The notes under the pieces are model-generated. The model was given only the letters and a program-made list of their open reading frames with translations. It was not told the origin of the DNA and searched no databases. The translations under genes were made by a program, and so were the position numbers. Of a stretch of DNA of 64,000 nucleotides, positions 13,204 through 24,845 are shown one piece after another. Positions within the stretch are counted from its first letter, which is position 1. Every line of letters starts with the position of its first letter. Origin of the DNA: Hexactinellida sp. DTS-2022 (lineage: Eukaryota; Porifera; Hexactinellida); the NCBI GenBank assembly GCA_028753945.1, contig JAPNXP010000007.1:4402001-4466000 (forward strand), given 5' to 3'.

Positions 13204-14163
13204 TCAATGGATCAGAACAATTAAATAGTTACAAAATGTTTTACCAAGAGGGGGAATTGCCTCCCTATGCCCCCCCGTAGTGACGCCCCTGCTAGCTCGG
13301 AGGCCTCTGGCATCGGGAGCAGCGCCGCTACAGCTGCAACAGCCGGGTATATCCAGGAGCGGGGCGAACGCGAGAGCTGGGAGGTGTCGGATGCGCATAG
13401 CCAGCTCCTCGTCCTGGCTGTAGGCTGCCTGCAGGCCAGCAGCCTGCACCTTGCGCCATACGTTCTGCGTGAGGTGGAAGAAGCAGCACTTGACCAGTGT
13501 GTCCGGCCACACCGCCTCAAAGCTGTTAATCGCAGCCTTCTCGAAGTCCAAGAGCATCTCCCTCGGCTGGGCAAGGGGACAGAGTAGGCGAATCTGCTCC
13601 CACATCCTCCTGTAGGTAGCCTCCGTCTTGTTGGGCAGCAGCACGAACAGACTCGGCAGCAGGTGACCATCCCTCATGATTTGAGGCCCTCCACGGAGTG
13701 CATGCACCACATACACCTGGGCGAAGAGGGAGGGAGCCGTCTTAAAGGTGCCGTCAGCCATCCAGTAGCCCGACAGTCGCAGCATCTCCAGGTTGCGCTG
13801 TGTCCCGAAGATGAGGATCCTCTGCGCCTCCGGTCCCGAGTCGTAGAGGAGGAACTGCTCCCCCTTGGGTGTCTGCTGGTACTCTGCCGGTAGCACCAGC
13901 TCCTCCAAACCGGCAGGCTGCACCGGGGCTGCCAGCTGCTGCACGCGCTGGCGCTGTATTGTCCGCTTCAGGCTGTCCAGCTTGGGTAGCTTAGCAGCCG
14001 TGCCCTCAGATACCGTCACCTCAGATACCGTCACCATACTCTCCCCCACTATGTGGTGCGAGCTGTCCTGCGACTCCCGTGCCCGCCTTTTGATGCCTAT
14101 CTTGGTCTCACAGCAGCTCACTGCCTGCTCGTCAGGGGCGTGGAGGTGCTCATTCGGGTACAA
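13204..14163 (-). pseudogene. Truncated MULE-type transposase
   Basis: The 319-codon frame contains the core of a Mutator-like (MULE domain) transposase: MADGTFKTAPSLFAQVYVVH with the first catalytic Asp at about residue 137, LLPNKTEATYRRMWEQ, then LLDFEKAAINSF with the second catalytic Asp, and CCFFHLTQNVWRKVQ. After LALAFAP-like sequence the reading becomes unrelated and meets a hAT-like tip (CAGGGGCGTCACTACGG on the minus strand, from 13291), so the third catalytic residue and C-terminus are lost. The 5' end is also open: a stop lies just upstream and no ATG is used. The frame is much more GC-rich than its neighbours, pointing to recent arrival or foreign base composition. Inactive as it stands. 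Confidence 0.85.
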
Positions 14164-14190
14164 CTATAGTATTGTACCCAAAAGGAGGAG

Positions 14191-14295
14191 GTATTAAAAA
14201 GTACTCAGCGCATAGAGTAGATTATGCGCTAGCGCATTGAGTACATAGATTATGCGCTAGCGCATACATAGACTTTGCGCAATTATACACTGGAG
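14191..14295 (+). repeat. KDZ element left TIR, outer part
   Basis: Carries two copies of the palindrome ATGCGCTAGCGCAT and then TAGACTTTGCGCAATTATAC. The same order, inverted, occurs at 22985-23027 and 24408-24476. It is cut from the inner part of the TIR by the B insertion. Confidence 0.85.
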
Positions 14296-14316
14296 CGTGA
14301 CCTACGTTACAATAAG

Positions 14317-15988
14317 GGACATACCTAATTTCCGGAACGGGACGGTATGGAACGGTACCATTCCGGAAAATCAAAGTACCTAAATTACGGAATTCCGCGG
14401 AACGGTTCTGGAAAATATGAATACCTAATTTCCGGAACGAAAATATTCCGGAAATTCAAATGCCTATTTTCCGGAATATTCGATTCCGGATATTATAAAT
14501 GCCTAATTTCCGGAACAAAATTATTCCGGAAATTTAAATGCCTATTTTCCGGAATTTTCGATTCCGTAAATCTTGATCCCTAATTTACAGAACAAAGGTA
14601 CCTGTTTTGACGGAAATGGACCCCCTACAGATTTGGACCGGGGGGTCCATTTCCGTCAAATATGTAAATATAGATAGTGTTTGACGGATTTGGACCCCCC
14701 TTTAACTTGATAATCAAGTCATCAAAATTGAGCCTTTACTTCCTGTTTGTCATCATACATGCTTACTTCCCAACTCTCTTGATATTACTCTTATTTGAAC
14801 ATTTCTGTAAATTTGTGTCATTTATCAATACACTATCAAAGATATACTGAGCACTCAAGTTAATTATTCTGTATATCTGTGAAACTCAGGCCCCTTGATT
14901 ACAGGCAATTCCAAAAATTAGAGAAATTAATGAAGATTACAATAAGTAAAATTGAGTTTTAGTAAACTCATAGGTTATTTACTATGTTATTAAAGGGGGA
15001 TCCAAATCCGTCAAACACTATCTATATTTACATATTTGAGGGAAATGGACCCCCCGGTCCAAATCTGTAGGGGGTCCATTTAAGTCAAAACAAAATGCCG
15101 ATCGAAAGATATATGCAATTCCGTGGATACTCTACCGAACCCCGAGTAAACCAAAATAGTGATTCCAATTTCCAACCTTCCTTTCCCGTCTTACCCTCTA
15201 AAGTCCTATTTTATTTCTTTACCCCCGGCCCCCGCTTAGTCCGAAATCGCTAAATGTAGGGATGAATCCAGTGATATGGACTAGACCTCTGCGCGGGGCA
15301 AGATAATAAATGCGGGTTGCGGGTCAAAGGATCTGAATATTTTGTGGGGCGGGGGCGGGGGCGGCACCCGCATACGACCCGCGCAGATGCCCCTTAAAAA
15401 AGTATTATATTATTATTGGAGCAAGTCATAGTAACTAAGTGTCGCACTTAGGAAGGAGGGCAGTGATACAATGTGCTTTAACAATGAGAGTAATCATTAA
15501 AAACGTTCGCAAGTGCCTAAACACTAAGTATGTATAAGTGACACGTGTTGATGTGTAGACTGTAGACAAGGTGGTATAGTTAGGAATACCAGGGTTTCAT
15601 TTAAACATTGACTCAAGTGATGGCAAAATTATGGTTTTCAGGAATAAGGGATGGCGATGCAAAACGCGGGATCCCTAAATCGCTAGTGATTTAGGGCACC
15701 ACAAGAACACAATAGGTTAGCTATTTCGGCCCCTGGGTCCTTAAACGCGCTTACGCCAGTTTGTTTCAATTTATCCTCATAATTTAGCACATTTAGTACA
15801 AAATAGTATGTCAGGATGCAAGACCAAATGTTTCTAAAGTCTATAATAACCAATACCTTGGGGGCTATCCCGTTCCGTAATTTAGGTACTTAGATTTCCC
15901 GGAATGGTACCGTTCCGTAATTTAGGTACTTTGATTTTCCGGAATGGTACCGTTCCATACCGTCCCGTTCCGGAATTTAGGTATGTCC
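14317..15988. mobile_element. Element A (CCGGAA-rich TIR family), copy 1
   Basis: Tips GGACATACCTAATTTCCGGA and its inverted copy ending GGTATGTCC. The flanking 8-mers ACAATAAG and ATAATAAG differ at one base and fit an 8-bp duplication within element B. The left arm is an array of about 30-bp degenerate units built on ATTCCGGAAAT. A central CTAAATCGCTAGTGATTTAG palindrome lies near 15677-15696. It contains nested element C. Non-coding; a second copy is at 23028-24407. Confidence 0.85.
14604..15091. mobile_element. Element C, foldback MITE inside element A
   Basis: Tips GTTTTGACGGAAATGGACCC and GGGTCCATTTAAGTCAAAAC. Next to each tip is a second inverted pair (TGACGGATTTGGACCCCCC against GGGGGATCCAAATCCGTCA). 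The other A copy at 23028 lacks it, so it is a later insertion. Non-coding. Confidence 0.8.
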
Positions 15989-16450
15989 ATAATAAGGCCT
16001 GTTCACTAGTGTTAAATTTTGGACCATGGATGTCGTTTAAGTCCATTGATTCTTTTTAGAATAAATGTTATAGTCAGAGATAATTAACCAAGTAGTAATC
16101 CAGAAGAAGTAAAATATTATTGGGTTTAATACCAAGCACATTTGAAGTAAATTAATGTTGCAATAGTACAAAATATTAAAGAAAACATGAAAGTGAATAT
16201 AAATTTTTAGCAAATAAACATTTGAAGAACAATAACAACTAATTGGGTTTAATTTTATTTATTTTTCGAGAAGTTTCGACACGAACCGACTGCAAGGGTA
16301 GCAAGGCATTCATATTTTTTGTTCTGGATTACTACTTGGTTAATTATCTCTGACTATAACATTTATTGTAAAAATATCAATGGACTTAAACGACATCCAT
16401 GGTCCAAAATTTAACACTAGTGAACAGGCCTTATTATAACGTAGGTCACG

Positions 16451-16840
16451 ACTGGGGATACTCAATTAGATTTTCGTACACGATTTAGTTCATCTCTTCA
16501 AAATTAATTATTTGTTATTTCTAACGTCTAATAGCTTTTGTTTTTGTTTTATTGTTCATCCCAATAATGAAACGAAATCACGTTAGCAACCTATCTTTAC
16601 AAAAGCAATTTCTGAGACAATTTTAAAGACTAAGAAATAAAACCACAGAATACGAATTTCAATCATGCAATCAGTTTCCAGCTAATACAGTGGCACAATC
16701 TAAATTGACACGTGGTTAAATTCTTAGCATCCTAACCGTTTCTATGACCAGTTGATATGTCAGCGGAAAGATCTAACGTGGAATAATCGCTGTCGAAATG
16801 TCTCATATAAATAAAAGAATGCGAAGCTCAATTTATCAGA
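16451..16840 (+). promoter_or_regulatory. KDZ element left TIR, inner part, with TATA-like promoter
   Basis: About 360 bp that recurs inverted, roughly 98 percent identical by eye, at 22617-22985. The inner edge contains TATAAATA at 16806-16813, 28 bp before the ATG of the protease gene. The mirrored copy puts the same motif before the transposase gene. Confidence 0.75.
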
Positions 16841-17055
16841 ATGCCAAGAATCACTAAAGGAAACGTCAAAGAGCATCTCTTTGCTGCAGTACAATCGTTT
16901 ACTCAACTAACTGGTGAACAAGTTGGGATCGTACTAACATGGAAAGGGAATTTGACTGTAATAGGGAAAGAACCATTCAAAGAGTATGTGAACGAACACC
17001 GGAGGGATATCCAAAAATCTCTGTTAACCACTACTCAGATAACAATACCGTCACC

Positions 17056-17488
17056 CAGGGTTGTTTGATTTAAATCAAGTGATTTAAATCATTGATTTAA
17101 ATCATGATTTAAATCAATGATTTTTATTAATAAAAATCATGATTTAAATCAAAAATCTGATTTTAATCAAAGAAGTCTGATTTAAATCAAAAAGTCGGAC
17201 TTTTTTGATTTAAATCAAGACTTTTTTGATTTAAATCAGATTTTTTATGTCTATTGTTTTTTGCGAAAAGAAAAGAAATACATTGATAATGAGTCAAATT
17301 ACATTGATAATGAGTCACTAACAATGTAATTAATCTATTAGCCAAAGAATATACGCCAGTGTGATATAGATTGCAAAAAAAAACAATTAAAATCAAAATT
17401 CTGATTTAAATCAAAAAAATCTGATTTAAATCAAAAAAATCGGATTTTTTTGATTTTTTTAAAAAAATCATGATTTTTATCAACCCTG
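17056..17488. mobile_element. hAT-like MITE inserted in protease exon 1
   Basis: Tips CAGGGTTG and CAACCCTG with a perfect 8-bp duplication CCGTCACC at 17048-17055 and 17489-17496. The interior is dominated by GATTTAAATCA repeats in both orientations. The exon frame is continuous across the site if the MITE and one duplication are ignored. Confidence 0.95.
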
Positions 17489-17716
17489 CCGTCACCTCTA
17501 CCACAATTATCGTCACCTCTACTACCAGTACTACCTCCACAAGATCCTAAACAGAAGGAAGTACTAGACTTGCTCGATTCTAGACTTGATCCATCCAGCA
17601 TTTCAATGGAGAGACTACGAAACTTTCTCTCTACTGCAATCAGAAATTCTACTGGTAAGTATTCATTTTCTTTAAGTAATTAATACTTAACTAAGGTCTT
17701 AAGACCTTAACTAATA

Positions 17717-17815
17717 CAGTAGAACCTGCATAATCCGACACGTTGGGATGAGATATATCTACCGGATTAAGGCGAATTCCGGATTATAGTGGGTCGGATC
17801 ACGCAGCTTCTACTA
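17717..17815. mobile_element. Pogo-type MITE in protease intron 1
   Basis: Left tip CAGTAGAACCTGCATAATCC after TA; right end GGATCACGCAGCTTCTACTA, degraded at its last bases. About 100 bp and intronic, so it does not affect coding. Confidence 0.65.
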
Positions 17816-20800
17816 TATAGAGTTTAATTTAATATTAATTTTTGTATATTCTAGATGGTAGGTATTGGTCAAAGAGATCATGTCCCAAATGGTGAGATCC
17901 AACTATCGAGTTTCGCAACCTTAAATCTGGCTATAGTAAAGATATGCTGATAAAACTGAATTTAGCGTACAGAGCATCTCATTCTCTTACTTCTCCGATA
18001 CGGGATAGATCACCTTATTCATCCCCTACACATACCTTAGAATCTTATCCGAGTTCTCCATTATTGTCACCTCCATCTGGTTTTTCAGATGTCAACAATT
18101 CTCCGCAACGTATAACACCGGATTCCACACATTCTACTGTATCGGACTCCAGCTTATTTCAGGCTGCTGATTCTGACAGTTCAAATTTAGGCCAAGAGGT
18201 CGAGATATACGCAGATAGTTTGGATGGTAGTGACAGTAAGTGTAGCAGCGAACAACCCGAACCTTATTTTCCCGCCCGAAAGATTATTTTTGAACCTCAA
18301 ACAATAATAAGTGTAAACCGCGACGACGACCTTGCAACTGCTTTGAGTGAACTATCGGATAAAGATACTCTACTTACGGATACTACAAATCACGCGTTCA
18401 TGGTATGTTAAATTTATTCTTTTTCATCGGAATTCTTACGCTAGCGTCTTATAAATTGCTAAAATAGTTTGGTTATTCATTAATCTTTATTTCATAGACT
18501 ATTCTCCGTAATCAATTCCCTCGTGTTCGTGGCCTCCAAAACATTATTGAGAGTTATGCTGCTTATAAACCTCATCCACGAAATAGTATCCAAATTCATC
18601 ATGACAACTCTAGGACACATTGGCTGGTTTCCTGTGCCGATCGTAATGGTGTGGTTAATGTATTTGATTCAATGTTTGATAAAACTACAGAGGAAGTTGA
18701 TATCCAATTATCACAGATTTACCCTCCGAAACATTGGTTCAAGTATGTTAGACAGGAATTGCAACAACAAGTAGGCCCATCAGATTGTGGGTTATTCGCT
18801 ACAGCTGTGTGCACGGCTCTTGTTCTTGAAGTAAATCCTTCACAATGTGTATGGGATCAAAGCCAAATGCGCTCCCATCTGTCGAAATGTTTAATTCAAC
18901 AAGATTTATCTCTGTTTCCAACACTTAAGAAGGCAATTCTTGTTCAAGTTATAAATAGGAAGTCTATGTCTTTCCGTTTGTATTGTTTGTGTGACATGCC
19001 TGAATTTTTTAGTAAATACATGACCCAATGCATTGACTGCAAGAATTGGTTTCACAATCCCTGTGTCAATCTCCCTGATGCAAACCTGAAATGTAGTAAC
19101 TTTACAGAAGTGTTTAAATGTCCTAATTGTAGCCCTATAGTTTGTTAATTGTAATTCTTTTATTTGGATAATGTATTACATTGTATATTATAATTTATCA
19201 CAATTGAACAAATTTATTTAATGTTTCTCTGTTGGTTTGACTTAGGAAATAACGAGTTGTATAGAATATATTTTCCACTTTCATATAAGACAACTGTGGA
19301 GAAATACGCCGTAATCTAGAGTATAGCTGTTCACAGACTTGGGAGTTGATAGTTTTAATTTCTCTTGTTTGAATACTTCGCATTGAGTAGGCTGGATTGC
19401 ACTTGTGGTTGATGGAGTGAAATCGGTCAATCAAAAAAGTTGTCTTTCGAAATTGTCTTGGATCTCTAAAAGCCCAAATAGTTTAGTTTACAAGCAAATA
19501 CGTATACAAGTACATAATGGATATAGTGATAATTTGTACTGTACATATATACAATTAATAATTAAAGTACTTAGGTAGTTACCTTATTAGACATGTGTTG
19601 TGTAGATTACACGCATTATCGTATATAACATATTTAGGGGGTATCATAAAGTACTGCATCAAAATGTTGAAGATTGTAACAGTCGATTCCCCTGAAGTCA
19701 GTATTTTAAAACCATACATATACCATGACGGCAAGACATGGTTACCATTCCGGGGGATAGGATCTTATGTTTCGGATAAGTTTTCTTACATCCTTGTTTA
19801 TCTTTTCGATCGTCAAGATCATAATTTGGCAATCTAAATAAATTAAACAATGGTTATACAAAACTATTAGATTAACCTAATACATTACTCACCTGTATTG
19901 TTGTTCAAAAGCTGGAAAATAGTTAAAGTAGTCCTGCTCAACGTAGACGCGAACAGGCTTTCTGGTTCTGCTAGTGTATAAATTTTCTACCTTATCAATT
20001 ATTTTAATAACAAACCGGAAACTAAAGGATGGAGACGGATTAATTCTGACGGCATTACTTGCACTTCGTAAGATAGAAAAAGAGGTTTGAAGTTGACCAT
20101 TTTCTTGTACAGCAGATCAATCTCGCAAACTTTTCTCGGTATACCAACTGATAAATCGACAACTAATGCTAATTCTTCCTCATCCAAAATTGAAAACTGA
20201 AAAACTCCAGAAATAGGCTGAGTTGTAGACAGATAGCTAAGAATCAATGAAACATGCTTATTAATAGGTTTATAGGTCATGTTTCCTCCGCTGTTAATAA
20301 CAGTGTAACTGTTGGCTACATATTCATTAAAACACCCAGGGTCAAGATCCATCATTAAAATCCCGAATGCTTGTGGAGATAACCCATCTGTTGAGTAGTG
20401 TTGTAACGCTCTTCGCAGCTTGCTATTTGTGATCCATACGCGATTTTCCATTGGTATGTGCGCTATTGGGATATCTTCTTTCGGAACAGATTCAGTGGGA
20501 ATTTCTTTATTAGTACCTAAAGTGACCCCATCAAAAATTACAGTCTCTGGCGCAGTTACACAAATTGGACAGGAAAAACACCGAGAATAATCAATAGCAC
20601 TGAGTCTAAGGTAAGCATTCCAAGCTAAATGCATCGTGTGATACTTGAGAAAGTTGGTACTTCCCATTCTCTTCAATTTATTGTTTTTGGCATTATTAAA
20701 GATTAAGAAAGTGATTATAGTAAAAAGTTCATCAACTTATAATTGCAAAATATTGAACTAAATTACTATCTCTTTAAAATAAATACCTGACAAACGCATA

Positions 20801-20949
20801 AAGTGGATTTCTTGAAGTCCTCATTAGTTCGCTATACTCGTACAGCAGCCCGTAATGGATCAAGTAGTGGTCATTTAGGTTTAAGAGAAGATGTTCATGG
20901 CCTTGATAGCCTTGCTCACATTTACAAGGGCCATCACAGATTGATGTAT

Positions 20950-21314
20950 AAGGCCATATAAAATAAATAACTTGTTTATCATCCCCGTCCGTCCCTATAT
21001 TTACCCCCCGTCCGGATCTATTTTATTCTTATTTTATGAACATAATCGTACAGATATTAACTATAAACTTGTGTAAAGTACTCCTAATTTAGCAATATTT
21101 AATTAGTCTTGTATTTAGAACATTACTTTCATTATTGGGCATTGTCTTGTGATTTTATAATTTAATTTAAATATTAATATTCATTGTTTGGCATAGGGTA
21201 ATGTTTTTTGCATATTAACGGAAATAAAAAATAAAAATAAAATCCCGTCCGCCGTCCGTATTTTCTGAAAAAATACGGATGATAAACAAGTTATTTATTT
21301 TATATGGCCTAAAC
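20950..21314. mobile_element. MITE at the edge of transposase exon 4
   Basis: Tips AGGCCATATAAAATAAATAA (complement at the right end, about 21290-21314) and the first base of the left end near 20950. The inner part has CCGTCCG words. It occupies intron 3 and reaches the 5' edge of exon 4, probably displacing the splice acceptor. Confidence 0.7.
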
Positions 21315-22008
21315 TAAATATATAATGTTAGTAACTATACTATTAAGCAGCACATAGAATGATAAATACATACCTCGGTGTTTGGGTAATAGTATTACGT
21401 CGCTTTCTGTATAAAGAATAATTCCTTTATGATGGGGTTTGCATGAACTTGAAGGGATATATTTGTGCCCATTGTTGCAATATGCGTTTTCAGAGTTTAA
21501 GTGTTCAGGAAGATTCAAGCCATCTGATAATTGGTTGATATATATTTGCTTCATTTCTGGTGTCAGTGAATGCGGAATGGGTGTGTTCGTCACCGTTTTG
21601 AAAATCATCGGATGATATTCTTTAACAGACATATTTGAGTCGGGCGCAATACTATGCTGGTACTCGCTTATGGTTTTCTTTTCTGGACAAGGACCTTTAC
21701 AATCAATGCAATAGAAACAATTATCAGTTAATTTAAATGTGTGTAGATCAGTTTCGTTTAGAATACAAATGAATTTCTTCGAAAATATATGAAGGTGATG
21801 AGATCTTATGGTAATAGGACAGGAAGATGGGATAACTACATTGGTCTTCTAACGCAATTTTATATGTTTTTATGTGTAAACAATCAACTTCTAGGCACTG
21901 ATTACAAGAACCATTTTTGATAATCACAATACGACCTTGAACGAGATGAACGATATCTAGAAATGAACAATAATATGTAAGTTATTTTGAATGAAAAATT
22001 AGTAAGTA

Positions 22009-22162
22009 CAGTAGAACCTCAATAGTACGAAAACGATTAATACAAATTTCCGTTTCGTACGAACACAATCTTGGACCCTTCAAAGGATTTTCAATGCTAA
22101 TTTGGATAAGACGAGCAAATTTTTACTGTCCCTTGGTGTTCGTAATAATGAGGTTCTTAATG
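22009..22162. mobile_element. Pogo-type MITE in transposase intron 2
   Basis: Left tip CAGTAGAACCTCAATAGTAC, right end AATGAGGTTCTTAATG, flanked by TA on both sides. Intronic. Confidence 0.7.
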
Positions 22163-22584
22163 TACGTCATAAATTAATCTTAATTAAAGGGTGATCCAAA
22201 TTTTTAAATAAAATTTACCAGATTCTTCATTGATTTCATAATCATACATCAAGATTATTTCCGACCCGGATAATTGCAAAACTCCAGAATGTTGGAGGAG
22301 AAGTATCAAATACTTTTCTTCAGGACTCGATTCTGAAACTTCCATCATCAAATCGTGTTCCTGATACGATGATTCGTGATCTGAGAAATAATCATTAATC
22401 TGAGTTCCTTCAGCTGAGTTGAGTTGAGGCGAAATTTTTCCTGGAAAAAAGAAAATTTATAGTACGCACAGTAAGCAAGATAAAGTTTATACTTACCCAA
22501 TTCAAATTCAAAATAACTATCTTGTTCAGGTTCTTGTGAGGACACAGGAGACATGTTGATATCTTCCATTATGTAGTCTGCCAT

Positions 22585-22985
22585 TTCTAATTTGATAGAT
22601 CAGTTATGTGGCTCAAATTTATTTATATGAGACATTTCGACAGCGATTATTCCACGTTAGATCTTTCCGCTGACATATCAATTGGTCATAGAAACGGTTA
22701 GGATGCTAAGAATTTAACCACGTGTCAATTTAGATTGTGCCACTGTATTAGCTGGAAACTGATTGCATGATTGAAATTCGTATTCTGTGGTTTTATTTCT
22801 TAGTCTCTAAAATTGTCTCAGAAATTGCTTTTGTGAAGATAGGTTGCTAACGTGATTTCGTTTCATTATTGGGATGAACAATAAAACTAAAACAAAAGCT
22901 ATTAGACGTTAGAAATAACAAATAATTAATTTTGAAGAGATGAACTAAATCGTGTACGAAAATCTAATTGAGTATCCCCAGTGTA
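22585..22985 (-). promoter_or_regulatory. KDZ element right TIR, inner part, with TATA-like promoter
   Basis: Inverted copy of 16451-16815. On the minus strand ATATAAAT lies at about 22621-22628, some 37 bp before the transposase ATG at 22584. It thus provides the same promoter-like sequence as the left TIR, facing inward. Confidence 0.7.
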
Positions 22986-23027
22986 TAATTGCGCAAAGTC
23001 TATGTATGCGCTAGCGCATATTAAATA

Positions 23028-24407
23028 GGACATACCTAATTTCCGGAACGGGACGGTACGGAACGGTACCATTCCGGAAAATCAAAGTACCTAAATTACG
23101 GAATTCCGCGGAACGGTTCCGGAAAATATGAATACCTAATTTCCGGAACGAAATTATTCCGGAAATTCAAATGCCTATTTTCCGGAATATTCGATTCCGG
23201 AAATTATAAATGCCTAATTTCCGGAACAAATTTATTCCGGGAATTTAAATACCTAATTTCCGGAATATACGATTCCGTTAATTTTGATCCCTAATTTCCA
23301 GAACAAAGATACCTCCTTTCACTTAACCCACGATCGAAAGATATGTGCAACCCCGTGGATGCCCTACCGAGACCCCGAGTAAACCAAAATAGTGATTCCA
23401 ATTTTCCCGTCTAAAATTCCTATTTTTTATTCTTTTACCCCCGGCCCTAAATCATTAGCGTTTTAGGGCCCGCTTAGTCCGAAATCGCTAAATGTAGGGA
23501 CCAGTCCAGTGATGAGACTAGACCTCTGCGCGGGTTAATTAATTAATTCATTAATGCGGGTCGCGGGACCCGCAACCCGCGGATTCATGCGGAACAAAGG
23601 ATCTGAATATTTTGCGGTGCGGGGGCGGCACCCGTATACGACCCGCGCAGAGGACTCCTTAAAATATTACAATACTATTAGTCATACTAACTAAGTGTCG
23701 CACTCAGGAAGGAGGGCAGTGATACAATGTGCATTTTACAACAAGAGTTATCATTAATTAAAAACGTATGTAAGTCCTTAAACACTAAGTATGTATAAGT
23801 GACACGTGAACACTAAGTGCACGTGTCGGACGTGTAGACTGTAGACAAAGTGGTGTAGAGCACCACCATCACCAAATGTTCTCACGCACGTACACATTAC
23901 ATACTGATGAAATCTGAGTTACTACCTAATTGAAAGTCCAACTAATACCACTCCTGTAATTTATTTATAGTTAGGGTTCCAGTATTTAAATTGTTAATTT
24001 AGGTACTTGAGCTGGGATAGATCAACTAAAGATTGATTAATTAAACCTATACGATATATTCAATCTATGCAAAACGTGGGGTCCCTAAATCGCTAGCGAT
24101 TTAGGGCACCCCTAGAACACAATAGGTTAGCTATTCGGCCCCTGGGTCCCTAAACGCCCTTACACCGGTTTGTTTCATTTTATCTTGATAATTTAGCACA
24201 TTTAGTACAAAATAGTATATCAGAATGCAAAACCAAATGTTGTTAAAGTCTATAATAACCAAATTAACCAATAACTTGGGTGTCTATCCCGTTCCGTAAT
24301 TTAGGTACTTAAATTTCCCGGAATGGTACCGTTCCGTAATTTAGGTACTTTGATTTTCCGGAATGGTACCGTTCCATACCGTCCCGTTCCGGAAATTAGG
24401 TATGTCC
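23028..24407. mobile_element. Element A family, copy 2, inside the KDZ right TIR
   Basis: Tips GGACATACCTAATTTCCGGA and the inverted GGTATGTCC at 24399-24407. It lacks element C. It contains the central palindrome CCTAAATCGCTAGCGATTTA near 24088 and internal GC-rich GGGTCGCGGGACCCG. It separates the palindromic motifs of the right TIR. No clear target duplication is visible. Confidence 0.85.
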
Positions 24408-24485
24408 TATTCTATGTACTCTATGCGCTAGCGCATAATCTATGCGCTAGGGTATGCGCTGAGTACTTTTTAATACATGAAAAGG

Positions 24486-24845
24486 ATTTGAATTTCCGGA
24501 ATAATTTTGTTCCGGAAATTAGGTATTCATATTTTTCCGGAACCATTCCGCGCAATTCCGTAATTTAGGTACTTTGATTTCCGGAATGGTACCGTTCCAT
24601 ACCGTTGTCGGAGTGCCAGCGGTCCCCCATGTCAGATGTCCCCTCGGACATGTGGCCCTAGAGTCAGATGTCCCCCTTAGGGTCAGATGTCCCCCCCCCC
24701 TCGGACTCCTCACCCTAAGATCAGATGTCCCCCCGGACCTGTGGCTCTGACACTAGTGTAATAGGTCCGGTCCGGGGGACATTATTTGGGGGGGACCGCT
24801 GACATTATGACACCGTCTCCCGTTCCGGAAATTAGGTATATCCAA
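24486..24845 (+). mobile_element. Element A family, right-end fragment
   Basis: Begins with TGAATTTCCGGAATAATT and ends CCCGTTCCGGAAATTAGG... at 24845, i.e. the right arm of an A element. It starts just outside the KDZ element and contains the element at 24606-24812. Confidence 0.75.
24606..24812. mobile_element. 207-bp TIR element with CCGT duplication
   Basis: Tips TGTCGGAGTGCCAGCGGTCC and GGACCGCTGACATTATGACA, flanked by CCGT on both sides (24602-24605, 24813-24816). Inside, CAGATGTCCCC is repeated at least four times. The uninterrupted A copies show the empty site. Confidence 0.8.

Follow-up and report, generated by a model that had tools for sequence, protein, structure and literature searches.

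A two-gene KDZ-class transposon from a sponge genome with a predicted NRF1-type end-binding accessory protein

A 64,000-nt stretch of the genome of the sponge Hexactinellida sp. DTS-2022 (contig JAPNXP010000007.1, positions 4,402,001 to 4,466,000), here called the window and numbered from its first base, carries at positions 14188 to 24479 an element that we read as a KDZ-class (Kyakuja-Dileera-Zisupton) transposon of the cut-and-paste type; it has a pair of convergent genes, terminal inverted repeats (TIRs) and an 8-bp target-site duplication (TSD). The minus-strand gene is predicted to encode the transposase, and the plus-strand gene a protein in which homology points to three parts: an NRF1-type dimerisation and DNA-binding domain, an Ulp1-type (C48) protease, and a PHD finger. 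This second protein most likely marks the element ends for the transposase, and the explanation as a whole, a two-gene KDZ transposon with an NRF1-type accessory protein that binds its ends, is one that we hold to be likely, with a single degree of confidence for class and mechanism together. Such an element would bring together a KDZ transposon, a SUMO-type protease with a convergent gene of its own, and the NRF1 DNA-binding domain accompanied by NRF1-type sites at the ends, a combination that did not appear in the open-licence papers listed in our searches.

The two genes stay together throughout the 112-Mb genome, whose relative loci and contigs are designated below by L- and C-numbers, respectively. 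A search with the inner TIR of the window copy gave 18 matches, and protein searches gave 151 Ulp1 matches (150 of them listed) and 115 matches to transposase exons, which were merged into 136 Ulp1 places and 101 transposase places. Among the Ulp1 matches listed, 73 of the 101 transposase places had an Ulp1 place at 6 kb or less, where chance would give 0.015 Ulp1 places within 6 kb of a transposase place; 71 of these 73 pairs were convergent, with the matched exons 0.4–1.3 kb apart in 64 of them. The other two pairs, one divergent and one on the same strand, each involve an Ulp1 place that is convergent with another transposase place as well. Likewise, the seven places of the genome with the Pfam KDZ domain (PF18758) all sit 120–205 bp from a convergent Ulp1 place. 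Because this convergent plan persists across families whose matched proteins are often merely 30–45% identical, we take the two genes to form one unit. An earlier note on this DNA had seen in the protease and the transposase two separate convergent transcription units and had proposed to look for them in other copies; their lasting association on opposite strands confirms that proposal.

The features of the window copy are the following.

14180 to 14187, no strand: left TSD, AAAAGGAG
14188 to 24479, no strand: whole element including nested insertions, recognised by its conserved termini (GAGG and CATG, each with TATTAAAAAG) and a TSD equal at 7/8 bases
14188 to 14293, plus strand: outer left TIR, GCGCTAGCGC palindromes at 14226 and 14254
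14294 to 16437, no strand: later insertion or insertions nested in the left TIR, not element sequence (TIR contiguous in other copies)
16451 to 16815, plus strand: inner left TIR with a TATA-like CATATAAATAAA at its end, directly before the plus-strand ATG
16841 to 17654, plus strand: exon 1 of the plus gene, NRF1-type dimerisation domain and beginning of the DNA-binding domain (from open reading frames, homology to the L057 N-terminus and the family alignment; relative copy L029)
17855 to 18402, plus strand: exon 2 of the plus gene, remainder of the NRF1-type DNA-binding domain and linker, with an in-frame TGA at 17893–17895
18498 to 19148, plus strand: last exon of the plus gene, Ulp1-type protease domain and PHD finger
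19198 to 22584, minus strand: KDZ-type transposase gene, about seven exons by comparison with L057, frame broken
21746–21375, 20950–20789, 20694–20014, 20011–19892, 19838–19716 and 19716–19231, minus strand: pieces of the transposase gene found by tblastn
22618 to 22982, minus strand: inner right TIR
22979 to 23025, minus strand: continuation of the right TIR, GCGCTAGCGC at 23008
23026 to 24407, no strand: later insertion nested in the right TIR, a CCGGAA-rich repeat (TIR contiguous in other copies)
24408 to 24479, minus strand: outer right TIR, GCGCTAGCGC at 24425
24480 to 24487, no strand: right TSD, AAAAGGAT

The element begins at 14188 with GAGGTATTAAAAAGTACTC and ends at 24479 with CTTTTTAATACATG, the GAGG and CATG ends each being followed by TATTAAAAAG pointing inwards. 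Its inner TIRs pair over 365 nt with 99% complementarity, and the TATA-like CATATAAATAAA is present at the inner end of both, each TIR thereby appearing to resemble the promoter of one gene. Both genes start directly after an inner TIR: the plus gene (ATG at 16841, stop ending at 19148) follows the left one, and the minus gene (ATG at 22584, stop ending at 19198) the right one. Their stop codons lie 49 bp apart, compared with 83 bp in L057 and 106 bp in L058. The mapped open reading frames with these ATG and stop positions thus bear out the earlier description of a plus-strand Ulp1/PHD gene and a minus-strand KDZ gene with stops 49 bp apart. The long TIRs that it placed at 14191 to 24476 are real, but they are interrupted by insertions and the true ends are three bases further out; its account is supported as regards the paired genes, the KDZ assignment and the duplication. 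It does not mention the nested insertions, the dead state of this copy, the arrays of palindromes or the NRF1-type domain. The gene models are sequence-based, with predicted splicing, and the end of exon 1 and the limits of exon 2 were set by hand. Judged from its sequence, the window copy is dead, because exon 1 is interrupted by an insertion (about 17060–17490), the TGA at 17893–17895 replaces a tryptophan codon seen there in relative copies, and the frame of the minus gene is broken.

Target-site duplications were scored in twelve elements whose ends were set by eye, and hence not blind, from conserved termini and flanks; even if this setting allows a shift by a base or two, agreement at 8/8 would still be very improbable by chance. 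One-ended copies of the window family (C5, C6, C13 twice, and C2:2621k) were left out of the count. The flanks agreed at 8/8 bases in seven of the twelve elements (C2:3374k, C16:3322k, L057, L058, L060, L061, and L065), at 7/8 in the window (AAAAGGAG and AAAAGGAT), L062, and L063 (the last after a one-base slide), and at 6/8 in the diverged C11 copy; the 8-bp duplications that the earlier note suggested looking for are thus found at other copies. In addition, the comparison of L057 with L058 over six coding pieces, including both NRF1-type exons, gave pS values of 0.68–0.81 and pN values of 0.14–0.31, of which the direction alone is used as synonymous change is near saturation. Among other Ulp1/PHD pairs, the dN/dS of three divergent pairs agrees; L050 and L037, which are nearly identical, have a value of 0.60 based on a small number of changes. 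From these substitutions, the coding exons appear to be under purifying selection.

The assignment of the minus-strand protein to KDZ, also made in the earlier note, was sustained by profile search through the intact relative L057. Its spliced transposase (781 aa, uninterrupted, with GT-AG introns) matched PF18758 with 35.4 bits (E 1.2e-8; curated cut-off 26.6), and the last exon of the window transposase aligns with it at 51% over the core. The domain exceeded the cut-off in six of the seven places detected in the genome, one of these six solely together with its neighbours. Candidate catalytic residues (LDG, YDNAC, and CEQ) were found in 12/12 sequences from nine families, the window included, and would correspond to D-D-E. 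A CxC4 cysteine cluster was matched with 21.7 and 20.3 bits (E 2e-4 and 5e-4), below its cut-off of 26.9. The Kyakuja families known to us have been described without TIRs, which Zisupton has. As to the length of the duplication, 8 bp is given for Zisupton and a Dileera and 7 bp for Kyakuja (PMC12730594, in part), and no TSD is reported for a nematode Zisupton (PMC9297572, in part).

The second protein of L057, of 516 aa and encoded by four exons, matched the NRF1 domain PF10491 above its cut-off in its first ~155 residues, and among 14 family domains, 13 matched it at E<=0.01, the best of them at 1.5e-9. A profile of the 14 families recovered human NRF1 from the PDB (8k4l, 1.9e-11; 8k3d, 2e-10), the next match having a value of 0.14; an earlier alignment of ten pieces had given human NRF1 at 2.5e-8 and 4.2e-8 and the next match at 0.58. 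With hhalign, the comparison with the NRF1 of the host reached a probability of 95, covering parts of the dimerisation and DNA-binding subdomains. A PF10491 search of the whole genome found the host NRF1 (176.5 bits; 173.7 bits in a separate run) and nine weak places (24.9–25.7 bits), eight of them within ~4 kb of an element gene, the exception being C1:14549328. In the crystal structure of NRF1, TpG is recognised by R206 and the remainder of TGCGC by N242 together with R244 (PMC10810270, in part). R206 is kept as R, and W234 as W, in all 17 rows of our alignment (15 element rows plus human and host NRF1). Human and host NRF1 are 36% identical, and the NRF1s are 16–23% identical to four element rows; in the tree, the two NRF1s form a group of their own, separate from all 15 element rows, with 100/100 support, and the host row is flagged as a long branch.

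The host NRF1 is encoded by a single uninterrupted open reading frame of 507 aa (L059 1517–3040, contig C1). The fungal YDR124W-like domain PF11001 also matches A1 and A3 members over a WWP stretch (three of ten at E<=1, best 5.6e-4), and one of 14 members of the wider set at E<=0.01; these matches perhaps reflect a wider fold family.

In the protease and PHD part, positions H41, D57, Q91, and C97 of the Ulp1-type domain are invariant across nine rows. Six of nine members matched C48 at E<=1 (best 8.1e-4), and all nine matched PHD at E<=1. Against the PDB, the profile of this region found the PHD fingers of PHF2 (best, 4.6e-14), BPTF, and PHF8, as well as the Ulp1-like SUMO protease 6dg4 (7.8e-5). 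PHD fingers of the PHF2, BPTF and PHF8 type read H3K4 methylation.

The presumed target of the NRF1-type domain is found in the TIRs. In eight full elements of different families (L057, L058, and L060 to L065), all 76 copies of the commonest 10-bp perfect palindrome of each lay within the TIR arms and none elsewhere in the loci (L057, 9; L058, 18; L060, 2; L061, 10; L062, 8; L063, 8; L064, 6; L065, 15). Arrays with a basic spacing of 21–25 bp were present in both terminal repeats of seven of the eight elements, with up to 14 sites in one arm. The highest count in 200 simulations per element was 2, exceeded by seven of the eight, and the maximum was likewise 2 in eight control segments taken from the window beyond the element. 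The exact NRF1 site GCGCATGCGC was found in three of the eight (L057, L058, and L064), a figure biased upward, as L064 had been chosen after appearing in the genome list of GCGCATGCGC sites. Other families have GCGCTAGCGC, CCGCATGCGG (L061), TCGCATGCGA, GCACATGTGC, or GAGCATGCTC (L065). In the window element, the four GCGCTAGCGC copies are the only ones in 64 kb, where 0 are expected, and all fall in TIR pieces; of the window-family copies, C2 and C6 also have GCGCATGCGC, and C16 and C11 lack it. Among ten further upstream stretches (L066 to L075), two to six perfect palindromes were arrayed in L066, L069, L070, L073, and L075, and an imperfect array was seen in L071. Genome-wide, there were 151 tandem GCGCATGCGC pairs versus 0 for the reversed control, and of the 17 GCGCATGCGC clusters listed, all on C1, 11 were no more than 2.5 kb from an element gene, compared with the 1.5% of C1 that is within 4 kb of one.

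The residue at the position of N242 may track the palindrome half-site, although we regard this as a weak lead. Nine element rows have N, and those of them with a palindrome of the CATG kind have half-sites ending in C; the residue is C in L060, L061, L062, and L070, and the half-sites of L061, L062, and L070 end in G or A, the rule not being readable in the GCGCTAGCGC of L060. Since these four rows form one tree group (93/91), the correlation counts at best as one event. Exceptions are a K in L069, a gap in L075, the window family (N), which mostly has GCGCTAGCGC, and the imperfect palindromes of L071. No clear pattern linked R244 to the palindrome in the element rows.

Several other insertions and arrays were observed. 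The nested later insertions take up ~3.5 kb of the window span, leaving ~6–7 kb for the element proper. The CCGGAA-rich repeat, with GGACATACC ends, is present in two copies, one per TIR (14317–15988 and 23028–24407); the 5' end of this family, as seen in the left-TIR copy, had long matches in 40/40 candidates scored, of 337 in the genome. The insertion in exon 1 shows CCGTCACC on both flanks and CAGGGTTG ends and is hAT-like by look only, and a small inverted-repeat insertion (~20951–21309) lies within an intron of the transposase gene. In L070, two occurrences of the terminal array enclose sequence that resembles part of a Gypsy-type integrase. NRF1-site arrays of C1 with no element gene detected in their vicinity are those near 3942018, 11492501, 11521952, 14820615, 14824941, and 15117184, and the pair 4.3 kb apart (14820615 and 14824941) may be a non-autonomous element. 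Finally, immediately left of the element there is an open reading frame for a MULE transposase (13207–14163, minus strand; PF10551, 40.7 bits, cut-off 27.6).

We propose the following mechanism, the order of whose steps is inferred. A dimer of the NRF1-type protein would bind the palindromes in both TIRs, spaced by ~22 bp in most families, and would thereby bring the protease and the PHD finger to both ends and both promoters. As each TIR also resembles a promoter for one of the two genes, the bound protein would both flag the ends to the transposase and control transcription. The protease would remove SUMO, its presumed substrate, from the transposase or from chromatin at the ends, perhaps lifting SUMO-dependent silencing. 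If the PHD finger reads histones as expected, it would retain or guide the complex on chromatin carrying H3K4 methylation. Speculatively, several dimers could wrap the evenly spaced sites.

Other explanations of the same data were considered. It is unlikely that the palindromes serve the NRF1 of the host as a promoter activator, with the element's own domain competing or doing another job: the host does possess NRF1, and L057, L058, and L064 carry the exact human site (as given in PMC10810270, in part), but the palindromes of other families differ from it while their own domain has diverged too, and an arm of up to 14 sites suits end recognition better than one promoter box. Quite unlikely, in our opinion, is a second protein that is a passenger countering host silencing only, with the transposase alone recognising the ends. 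The occurrence of Ulp1 domains in several unrelated transposons, Ginger1 and Mutator among them (PMC2836005, in part), is in line with a passenger; against it are the NRF1-type domain, detected in 13 of the 14 family sequences tested, and the confinement of the counted palindromes to the ends.

With regard to the class, we find it very unlikely that the element belongs to a separate superfamily that merely resembles KDZ. The PF18758 match is indeed modest (35.4 bits at best, with profile positions 76–217 alone matched) and CxC4 stays under its cut-off, but L057 exceeds the curated KDZ cut-off, both CxC4 matches have low E values (2e-4 and 5e-4), and the 8-bp TSD is as for Zisupton (PMC12730594, in part). 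A chance nesting of two genes from different elements is hardly credible: nested insertions are common at the window locus, but 71 of the 73 pairs are convergent, 64 of these 71 at 0.4–1.3 kb, with proteins often 30–45% identical. An origin of the genes from separate elements was rejected on the same pairing.

The two-gene KDZ transposon with an end-binding accessory protein also has points that weigh against it. The exons of the window itself fall below the Pfam cut-offs (KDZ 17.9 bits, cut-off 26.6; no C48 match up to E 1), and its family membership therefore rests on relatives. Among these, the C48 scores of 19.3 (L058) and 13.9 bits are both below the cut-off of 20.7, and the final dozen residues of the L057 Ulp1 protein look frame-shifted with respect to L037 and L040. 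For the Ulp1 exon of the window, a single-sequence structure model had a mean pLDDT of 34.8 and was of no use. Of the residues that read the NRF1 site, nine of the 15 element rows have N at N242, and six of 15 have R or K at R244 (K in the host NRF1). No Ulp1 partner was detected within 6 kb of 28 of the 101 transposase places among the matches listed, and L064 showed no convincing TSD (4/8). As for the palindromes, L060 has one perfect copy per arm, no more than chance, no array was found in four of the ten upstream stretches (L067, L068, L072, and L074), and six of the 17 C1 clusters listed had no element gene detected near; the choice of L064 mentioned above counts on this side too.

We know of no account of the ancestry of NRF1, a vital animal transcription factor. 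A recent capture of the domain from the host NRF1 was rejected as unlikely on the 100/100 grouping and the identities of 36% versus 16–23%, a rejection that does not cover an older transfer in that direction. It is conceivable, though we lean somewhat against it, that an end-binding subunit of such a KDZ transposon gave rise to the DNA-binding part of NRF1. The reverse may also be considered, namely that an NRF1 domain was captured by such an element before animals diversified. If the descent from a transposon were true, the NRF1 promoter site GCGCATGCGC would be a relic of the terminal repeat of a transposon, and the families described here would show the joint diversification of domain and palindrome. 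The families make the origin of this essential factor directly testable and, with an NRF1-type domain next to its presumed target in each, form a natural series in which recognition could be read by swapping.

Compared with known systems, fish Zisupton has one coding sequence, whereas here there are two genes on opposite strands. With Zisupton and the KDZ class, the element shares the PF18758 domain, a multi-exon gene, TIRs, and an 8-bp TSD (PMC12730594, in part), and it differs in the two convergent genes, the accessory protein with NRF1-type, protease and PHD parts, and the palindrome arrays in the TIRs. Among the open-licence papers listed in our searches, as far as titles and the beginnings of abstracts tell, neither an NRF1-type domain in a transposon nor a two-gene Zisupton was found. 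NRF1 (P3A2, EWG) has in common with the element protein the dimerisation and DNA-binding domain, W234, the equivalent of R206, and, in several families, the GCGCATGCGC site (PMC10810270, in part); in contrast, the element domain is 16–23% identical to it, fused to a protease and a PHD finger, borne by a transposon, and placed in a separate tree group. Ginger1 and Mutator likewise provide cases of a transposon-borne Ulp1 protease and PHD finger (Ginger1-9_HM), but in Ginger1 these form the C-terminal part of a transposase that is unrelated and of the integrase type, whereas here they are in a separate gene (PMC2836005, in part). Finally, RAGL/ProtoRAG elements also have two convergent genes between TIRs, encoding a transposase and an accessory protein, in most cases with a PHD finger at its end (PMC7204232, in part), with another transposase, a kelch domain in place of the NRF1-type domain and protease, and a 5-bp TSD. 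By analogy only, this parallel with the RAG transposon and its convergent, PHD-bearing partner suggests that chromatin-reading partners of transposases may have arisen more than once.

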